25,318 nucleotides of DNA from a virus: positions 1-25,318 of IMG/VR virus record IMGVR_UViG_3300025687_000298; one strand, 5' to 3'. Made by a program: the position numbers and the translations under genes. Below the pieces are notes generated by a model. It saw only the letters and a program-made list of their open reading frames with translations. It had not been told where the DNA came from and did no database searches. Positions 1,833 to 2,800 of this stretch are shown piece by piece. Each line of letters opens with the position of its first letter. The first letter of the stretch is position 1.

Positions 1833-2091
1833 GTGCATCATGCTTACCGATATCGCCAAGCCGGTATTCAATCAGAACTTCATCGACGTGCATACAAACC
1901 CACAATATGAGCTGACACTGATGGGTAACTGGATTTCGGTCAAATATGGCCAATCAGACCCTCGTTTCGTGCCAGTTCAGTCTATTTCGTGGATGGCACC
2001 GCTCAAAGCCGAGGATATGGGGGCAAAAGAGACCCCAAAAAGGGGTCGAAAACCCAAAATCAAGGCGGTAGCCGATGAGCTTCATGCGTGA
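1813..2091 (+). CDS. Small protein with AT-hook-like C-terminal tail
   Basis: This 92-residue protein has no function I recognise. ATG 1813 is chosen because GGAG lies at 1803-1806 with a 6-base spacer; ATG 1801 (four residues longer) is the alternative. The body looks like mixed beta structure (YELTLMGNWISVKYG). The C-terminus carries PKRGRKPKIK, which resembles the RGRP core of an AT-hook, so DNA binding is possible. The last codons contain one copy of a 12-base direct repeat (2069-2080) whose other copy overlaps the terminase start. If the 700 bases between were absent, this gene would read on to end in ADEPAKQAI, giving 95 residues. The present C-terminus may therefore be altered by an insertion. 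Confidence 0.65.
   Translation: MQSVPLKCIMLTDIAKPVFNQNFIDVHTNPQYELTLMGNWISVKYGQSDPRFVPVQSISWMAPLKAEDMGAKETPKRGRKPKIKAVADELHA
2069..2080 (+). repeat. Left copy of 12-base direct repeat TAGCCGATGAGC
   Basis: This is an exact match to 2769-2780, offset by 700 bases. It contains the ATG at 2075 used, or usable, as the methyltransferase start. It is read in frame as (V)-A-D-E in the upstream small protein. Confidence 0.85.
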
Positions 2092-2800
2092 GCTGGCTCT
2101 TTTCGCGGGCGCTGGTGGAGGAGTCCTTGGGGGAAAACTCCTTGGATGGCGAACCGTGTGCGCTGTCGAGTGCGACCCCTACGCCGCCAGCGTCTTGGTT
2201 TCCCGACAAAACGACGGAACCCTTGACCCTTTCCCGGTCTGGGATGACGTGCGAACGTTTGACGGCAGACCATGGCGAGGCATTGTTGACGTCGTTTCGG
2301 GCGGCTTTCCGTGCCAAGCCTACAGTAACGCCGCTCGAGGCCGACATACAGCGCGAGGCTTGTGGCCAGAAATGCTTAGAATTATTTCAGAAGTACGCCC
2401 AAGATACGCTTTTTCCGAAAACCCGAGCGAAGATGCAATCATCGAAGCTCAAGCAGACCTTGCCGCCGCCGGTTACTCTACCGCGAGAATCAAACTATCA
2501 GCGTCCTTCTTGGGTGCTCCGCATATTAGGGACAGATGGTGGATGGTTGCCGACTCCGACAACAAAAGCGAATTGGGCGGCCAAAAGTATGCAAAAGTGG
2601 AAGGGCAGCAGAAATGCCGTAATGGTCTTTGGGAAACCGACCCCCGAGAACCACGAGTGGTTGATGGGGTGGCCAATCGGATGGACAGACTTAAATGCAT
2701 TGGAAATGGGCAAGTTCCATCAGTGGCAGCAGCAGCATGGGGATATTTAACTGGATATTGGGGTAATTTAGCCGATGAGCCAGCAAAACAAGCAATATGA
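2075..2800 (+). CDS. DNA cytosine-5 methyltransferase (Dcm type)
   Basis: The product transfers a methyl group from S-adenosylmethionine to C5 of cytosine. Counting from the internal ATG at 2084 (MRELALFAGAGGG), motif I FAGAGGG is at 7-13 and motif IV GGFPCQ has catalytic Cys77. Motif VI is ENP at 112-114 (usually ENV), motif VIII is IRDRWW at 148-153, and the final motif GNGQVP is at 207-212. All catalytic landmarks are present, but the target-recognition stretch between motif VIII and the final motif is only about 45 residues, making the enzyme compact (238-241 aa). The residues after motif X (ADEPAKQAI) look borrowed from the neighbouring gene. ATG 2075 has AAGG nine bases upstream, while ATG 2084 matches the start I recall for the family. 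Likely role: methylating phage DNA against host restriction. Confidence 0.93.
   Translation: MSFMRELALFAGAGGGVLGGKLLGWRTVCAVECDPYAASVLVSRQNDGTLDPFPVWDDVRTFDGRPWRGIVDVVSGGFPCQAYSNAARGRHTARGLWPEMLRIISEVRPRYAFSENPSEDAIIEAQADLAAAGYSTARIKLSASFLGAPHIRDRWWMVADSDNKSELGGQKYAKVEGQQKCRNGLWETDPREPRVVDGVANRMDRLKCIGNGQVPSVAAAAWGYLTGYWGNLADEPAKQAI
2088..2750 (+). CDS. Alternate-frame protein fully overlapping the methyltransferase gene
   Basis: The second frame of the methyltransferase DNA encodes 220 residues from GTG 2088. That GTG forms a GTGA overlap with the stop of the upstream small gene (TGA 2089-2091), a classic coupling arrangement. The product (MSWLFSRALVEES...) matches, from memory, a family often annotated as hypothetical in phage and prophage genomes. 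Shared landmarks are SLDGEPCALSS at 18-28, GMTCERLT at 52-59, WLPTPT at 153-158 and EWLMGWPIGWTDL at 190-202. WPTP and WLMGWP motifs also occur in C-terminal parts of some phage cytosine methyltransferases. An open frame of 220 codons has a chance of roughly 3 in 100,000 under uniform base use, though constraint from the other frame weakens that figure. Function is unknown; it could be a partner or decoy of the enzyme, or a conserved shadow. Confidence 0.55.
   Translation: MSWLFSRALVEESLGENSLDGEPCALSSATPTPPASWFPDKTTEPLTLSRSGMTCERLTADHGEALLTSFRAAFRAKPTVTPLEADIQREACGQKCLELFQKYAQDTLFPKTRAKMQSSKLKQTLPPPVTLPRESNYQRPSWVLRILGTDGGWLPTPTTKANWAAKSMQKWKGSRNAVMVFGKPTPENHEWLMGWPIGWTDLNALEMGKFHQWQQQHGDI
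2769..2780 (+). repeat. Right copy of 12-base direct repeat TAGCCGATGAGC
   Basis: This exact copy of 2069-2080 contains the terminase start ATG at 2775. It is read as L-A-D-E near the end of the methyltransferase, in the same phase as A-D-E in the upstream small gene. Confidence 0.85.

Follow-up and report, generated by a model that had tools for sequence, protein, structure and literature searches.

A phage C5-cytosine methyltransferase gene that probably encodes two overprinted polypeptides

Our results suggest that the methyltransferase locus of a 25 kb virus contig (IMG/VR IMGVR_UViG_3300025687_000298; the whole stretch analysed, 25,318 nucleotides, is called here the window) encodes a single C5-cytosine methyltransferase as two overprinted polypeptides of the M.EcoHK31I kind. 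Alpha, read in frame 0, would be the catalytic domain, while beta, read in the +1 frame, would carry the target-recognition segment (TRD) and motif IX. We put the probability of this reading at about 85%.

The locus and its two open reading frames

The locus is located directly 5' of the genes for the terminase large subunit, the portal and the capsid. The beta ORF (2088-2750) is nested within the alpha ORF (2084-2800), in the +1 frame. The features of the locus, all on the + strand, are the following:

2084..2800, +, alpha ORF, C5-cytosine methyltransferase catalytic part; frame 0; motifs I, IV, VI, VIII and X
2075, +, alternative alpha start, an in-frame ATG preceded by AAGGCGG
2088..2750, +, beta ORF, predicted small-domain subunit (TRD and motif IX); +1 frame, GTG start, 220 aa
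2084..2090, +, paired start codons ATGcGTG, alpha and beta 4 nt apart
2099..2122, +, alpha motif I (LFAGAGGG, SAM binding), from the sequence and invariant alignment columns
2300..2317, +, alpha motif IV (GGFPCQ, catalytic Cys)
2417..2425, +, alpha motif VI (ENP); E112 and N113 invariant in the alignment
2522..2542, +, alpha motif VIII (HIRDRWW)
2543..2654, +, beta-dominant coding stretch, predicted TRD WLPTPTTKANWAAKSMQKWKGSRNAVMVFGKPTPENH, from codon-position variability and low alpha pLDDT
2655..2693, +, motif IX EWLMGWPIGWTDL in the beta frame, over alpha VVDGVANRMDRL
2699..2719, +, alpha motif X (IGNGQVP)

The initial annotation had described two long ORFs in different frames of the same 660 bases, and proposed a near-complete overprinted gene pair whose +1 product belongs to a widespread phage family. 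We confirmed the coordinates (2075/2084-2800 and 2088-2750), the peptides quoted from both frames are correct, and both proposals hold, the family being represented by phrog_1008, phrog_26627 and phrog_35493. In PHROG searches beta matched these three families, phrog_26627 and phrog_35493 (both of 'unknown function') at its C-terminal end. The phrog_1008 family ('DNA methyltransferase') matches the beta-frame proteins of the relatives in long alignments, the longest running from 67-313 to 38-281. None of the three has a record of overlap with a methyltransferase gene. A profile search with beta matched no Pfam family, and the beta family is conserved in alignments of 19 and 67 rows. Alpha matched PF00145 (E=2.9e-19; profile positions 2-164 of 324 only) and phrog_363 (DNA methyltransferase; E=2.8e-54).

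The methyltransferase motifs are divided between the two frames

Motifs I, IV (PCQ), VI (ENx) and VIII, characteristic of PF00145, are together in the alpha chain. Alpha is nevertheless not a full-length single-chain enzyme, its Pfam match ending at position 164 of 324 and motif IX being in the +1 frame. Between motifs VIII and X, alpha only contains a spacer of about 40 poorly conserved residues (amino acid identity 0.21) without a confident fold, and the predicted TRD of the window was placed in beta for this reason. These results do not agree with the original idea that the enzyme frame carries all the motifs, because motif IX is absent from alpha and present in the +1 frame at 2655-2693. 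Nor do they favour the proposal that the second protein is an extra which regulates a complete enzyme or works on its own, since the +1 product holds the piece that alpha lacks. As this piece is the small domain with motif IX, the +1 product is best read as the other subunit of this enzyme. The WPTP and WLMGWP motifs, seen also in the C-terminal parts of other phage methyltransferases, are shared because this is the TRD/motif IX region.

Alternatively, beta could be a separate protein, such as a regulator or an inhibitor of the methyltransferase, and alpha a complete small enzyme. The N-terminal 150 residues of beta, which are conserved and have no known fold, would fit this possibility, as would the routine annotation of alpha ORFs as complete enzymes. 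We consider it improbable, since alpha has neither motif IX nor a folded small domain, beta has them at the expected place, and beta dominates selection exactly between motifs VIII and X (see below).

The division is the same in the relatives of the locus. When motif IX is recognisable, it is in the +1 frame, with motifs IV and VIII in frame 0, in essentially all of them; motif X is mostly in frame 0. Among 252 sequences, 169 combined two open frames with IX in +1 and X in frame 0, another 5 carried both IX and X in +1, and none (0/252) had motif IX in frame 0. Note that this set includes some duplicates and that some of the scans used beta as bait, so the fair count comes from the loci found with alpha as the only bait. 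In 58 of these 62 distinct loci, motif IX was in +1 and there were zero stops from motif IV to IX; in 3/62 the pattern used did not detect IX, and 1/62 was shifted.

Selection acts on the +1 frame

Selection on the +1 frame is frame-specific in the 110 loci studied. After synonymous shuffling of alpha, an open +1 frame survives in 3% of the window shuffles, and in a median of 0.2% for 110 relatives. In 110 non-redundant loci, all with both frames open and picked for this openness, 4.2 stops per gene in the +1 frame are expected under synonymous shuffling and 0 were observed, while the +2 frame has 13.3. Canonical methyltransferases have 19.8 stops in +1, compared to 20.9 in their own shuffles.

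Conditioning on alpha-synonymous differences, the BLOSUM excess of the +1 residues was +0.44 in the I-VIII region and +1.84 in VIII-X. Of the remaining four frames, three gave 0.06-0.12 and 0.68-1.35, respectively, in the same test, and one stayed close to zero; the pairs are not independent, and just the contrast between frames is used. At alpha-synonymous differences in I-VIII, 163 stops were observed in the +1 frame, versus 2551 expected. Codon identity at conserved alpha residues showed an excess of 0.13-0.24, about double the 0.06-0.11 measured in flanking genes at similar protein identity. Moreover, the real +1 translation scored 274.6 bits with a beta HMM for which only more distant loci had been used in training, compared to 134.9 +/- 14.8 (maximum 183 bits) for 2000 shuffles that preserve the enzyme protein.

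The codon position that varies most changes along the gene in the 38 window-like loci. In I-VIII it is alpha position 3 (0.54 vs 0.31/0.24), from VIII to IX it is alpha position 1, which is beta position 3 (0.64 vs 0.50/0.49), and the same position varies most across motif IX (0.48 vs 0.28/0.28). At motif X it is again alpha position 3 (0.50). Since the variable position passes from alpha to beta and back to alpha, the dominant reading frame switches at the domain borders. Taken together, the openness, BLOSUM, codon identity, codon position and HMM tests reveal purifying selection in the 2088 frame beyond that forced by the enzyme.

Could alpha conservation and codon bias force an apparent conservation of the +1 frame, which would then be a by-product? 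Alpha conservation on its own yields about 135 bits of apparent beta similarity, and in simple identity tests other frames also show an excess. We regard this explanation as extremely improbable: it is rejected by the lack of +1 stops when +2 has 13.3, by the conditional BLOSUM test and by the codon-position switch; the real beta scores 140 bits above the shuffles, and canonical methyltransferases keep about as many +1 stops as their shuffles.

The simple identity excess over synonymous shuffles was discarded as a test. It was positive in +1, but the other frames also showed an excess because shared codons raise every frame; being unspecific, it was replaced by the conditional and codon-position tests. 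Terminase homologues were too similar (at least 89%) to serve as divergence control and were substituted by flanking ORF pairs. In close pairs, pS in the overlap was clearly depressed in one (0.044) and hardly so in the other (0.122, compared to 0.166 in the terminase); dN/dS of close pairs is suggestive only, because the divergence of the flanks is mosaic.

Paired start codons and proposed expression of the two chains

The alpha start is exactly 4 nt upstream of the beta start in 78 of the 88 loci whose beta start codon aligns with that of the window, mostly as ATGAATGAGC. A Shine-Dalgarno (SD)-like sequence was present in 58 of these 78 paired-start loci, as a single SD whose median distance is 4 nt to alpha and 8 nt to beta, and in 72/78 an in-frame stop comes before the beta start. 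The beta GTG of the window shares bases with the stop codon of ORF 1801-2091, which lies upstream (GTGA). A start/stop overlap of the GTGA type is the usual sign of translational coupling.

We propose that both chains are probably translated from one mRNA, with the ribosomes choosing between starts located 4 nt apart, and that translation of the window beta may be coupled to the stop of the upstream ORF. Alpha would form the large catalytic domain, with SAM binding (motif I), PCQ (IV), EN (VI) and motif VIII, and its motif X would fold back onto this domain. Beta would supply the small domain, with the target-recognition segment and motif IX. The two are expected to form an active heterodimer and to methylate the phage DNA, with beta determining the site, most likely as a protection from host restriction.

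Another explanation would be a single-chain enzyme produced by programmed frameshifting, in which a shift to +1 after motif VIII is undone between IX and X by a return to frame 0. These two shifts restore the canonical order I-VIII-TRD-IX-X, coding dominance switches at exactly the points that frameshifting would need, and for those relatives with X in +1 one shift would suffice. However, two programmed shifts per protein are needed, the +1 frame is also constrained in I-VIII (163 vs 2551 stops; BLOSUM excess 0.44), a region of it that the frameshift product would not use, and beta has its own conserved start, with the preceding in-frame stop in 72/78 paired-start loci. We therefore find this mechanism highly unlikely. 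Against the two-chain reading we counted the GTG start of the window beta, its poor fold and lack of a PDB match when modelled alone, the lack of a profile match and the uneven pS of the close pairs.

ORF 1801-2091 overlaps the acetyltransferase-like ORF 1332-1832 as well as the beta start. It has strongly diverged from its counterpart in L002 (pS 0.46, pN 0.14) while its neighbours are well conserved, so this could be a recombination border.

Structure predictions

The AF2 model of alpha (pTM 0.74; residues 162-185 and 195-209 with pLDDT <50) has the large-domain fold of M.HhaI. The model aligned with M.HhaI with Z 17-19 and 2.6-3.4 A over 181-186/327 residues, covering the large domain and the motif X helix, with the stretch in between disordered; the alignment with Z 17.4 had 2.6 A over 181 residues. 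This large-domain fold is common to alpha and the single-chain enzymes M.HhaI and M.HaeIII (Z about 17), from which the window differs in that the small domain and motif IX lie outside this chain.

Modelled alone, beta had a mean pLDDT of 53 and a pTM of 0.24, and just residues 160-220, approximately, reached 60-84. A weak fold of this sort would not be surprising in a subunit that needs its partner for folding, although it is not evidence of a complex. The single-chain beta model had no structural match in the PDB, the beta sequence profile gave two chance-level matches only against the PDB, and HHalign did not match beta with the five canonical methyltransferase sequences compared. The proposed homology between beta and the classical TRD is therefore based on the presence of motif IX, on position and on frame dominance.

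Comparison with known two-polypeptide methyltransferases

The smaller chain of M.EcoHK31I is encoded inside the larger one, in another frame, and the two ORFs of the window are nested in the same way. In this two-polypeptide C5-methyltransferase (YGGCCR), the larger chain has motifs I-VIII and X and the smaller one motif IX (PMC3404938, which cites Lee, Kam and Shaw 1995 NAR 23:103). By its described motif layout, the window is like M.EcoHK31I. The predicted TRD of M.EcoHK31I, however, sits in the larger chain (PMC3404938), whereas that of the window is in beta.

In M.AquI (CYCGRG), alpha has motifs I-VIII and beta motifs IX-X (PMC3404938). The window resembles it in having two chains, with the catalytic and the small-domain parts separated, and differs from it because motif X stays in alpha, in frame 0, and because the ORFs overlap almost completely. 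The M.AquI layout, with IX and X in +1, was found in L031, L039, L040 and the Mycobacterium phages Nebs and Anthony.

M.BatI, an orphan prophage methyltransferase that recognises GCDGC, is reported to be 20-30% smaller than is typical and to have an unusually short TRD (PMC8936443). By this description, its small size and short TRD are as expected of an alpha chain. M.BatI is likely a characterised relative, for which a beta frame is predicted.

Public annotation and implications

Public records mostly annotate one frame or the other: just alpha in E. coli PT62, a truncated alpha in Klebsiella phage BUCT711, and just beta, as 'hypothetical', in the Pseudomonas phages phPA-G and Shamal and in Vibrio phage 1.291.O. 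In the phage records L092, L093 and L290, the beta frame alone is annotated (hypothetical) and the methyltransferase is missing. Two-polypeptide enzymes of this kind were already known; that they extend over phages, bacteria and one archaeal plasmid appears little recognised, and a text search of a literature library found no paper describing the overprinting as a general phenomenon.

Outside small viruses, overlaps this long rarely have evidence of selection across a wide host range. For the pair in the window, a joint function can be tested, a biochemical precedent exists, and sequence-specific methylation offers a clear assay. On our reading, for many methyltransferases of phages and prophages, cloning only the one annotated protein in a recoded or tagged version would yield an inactive enzyme, and many 'hypothetical' phage proteins of the EWLMGWPIGWTDL family would gain a function. 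To predict specificity, the +1 frame, rather than the annotated enzyme, would be the place to look.

Distribution of the overprinted layout

The bacterial contigs matched include Pseudomonadota, Verrucomicrobiota, Desulfuromonadales, Chloroflexi and Omnitrophota. Distant relatives with the same layout are present in Mycobacterium phages, a Synechococcus phage, an E. coli phage, and plasmids from Nostoc, Salmonella and Methanomethylovorans. Pseudomonas phage Shamal, Klebsiella phage BUCT711 and Mycobacterium phage Zerg are relatives available in culture. The true single-chain enzymes obtained in the same searches (L343, L346, L352 and L354) have motif IX in frame 0 and many +1 stops.

We also considered whether the split loci might be single-chain methyltransferases that have become pseudogenes by degeneration or frameshift. 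A small number of copies are clearly shifted, as in L048/L049 (2968-3802), where an indel between VIII and IX places IX in +2 and X in +1, the result of a decayed gene or a sequencing error. Decay is hardly credible as a general explanation, because loci with as little as about 40% alpha identity, from phages, several bacterial phyla and one archaeal plasmid, keep the frame layout and intact catalytic motifs.

We lean towards the view that overprinting is the ancestral, clade-wide layout of a very large group of phage, bacterial and archaeal C5-methyltransferases, with the recognition subunit always in +1, the 4-nt paired starts in one subgroup, and nearly all members annotated as one protein or the other. 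If so, it would rank with the broadest and oldest near-complete gene overlaps of cells and phages, in an enzyme that has the same DNA coding for both of its complementary parts.

Several relatives depart from the window in their arrangement. In the AquI-like L031/L029 (3005-3823), L039 (3005-3946), L040 (2945-3919), L350 and L351, frame 0 ends after motif VIII, and the TRD, IX and X are all within the +1 ORF. In phages Nebs and Anthony, which are AquI-like, the annotation lists each part as a DNA methylase, and the parts overlap by 23 and 215 nt. A second broad subfamily, the GGFPCQPFSVAGKR enzymes (L042 3137-3751, L335 and L338), has beta in +1 with a later start, near motif IV, and the beta pattern LFAEDSPASRSVLPGSE...LPTPT...EWLMGFPxGWTDL. 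In L347 (1081-2052), from a Streptomyces platensis plasmid, IX and X are in frame 0 and +1 is open over TRD-like repeats; it may be a re-fused single-chain member. In L345 (1138-2628), from a Paenibacillus polymyxa plasmid, the +1 frame has two copies of motif IX, which suggests an internal duplication.
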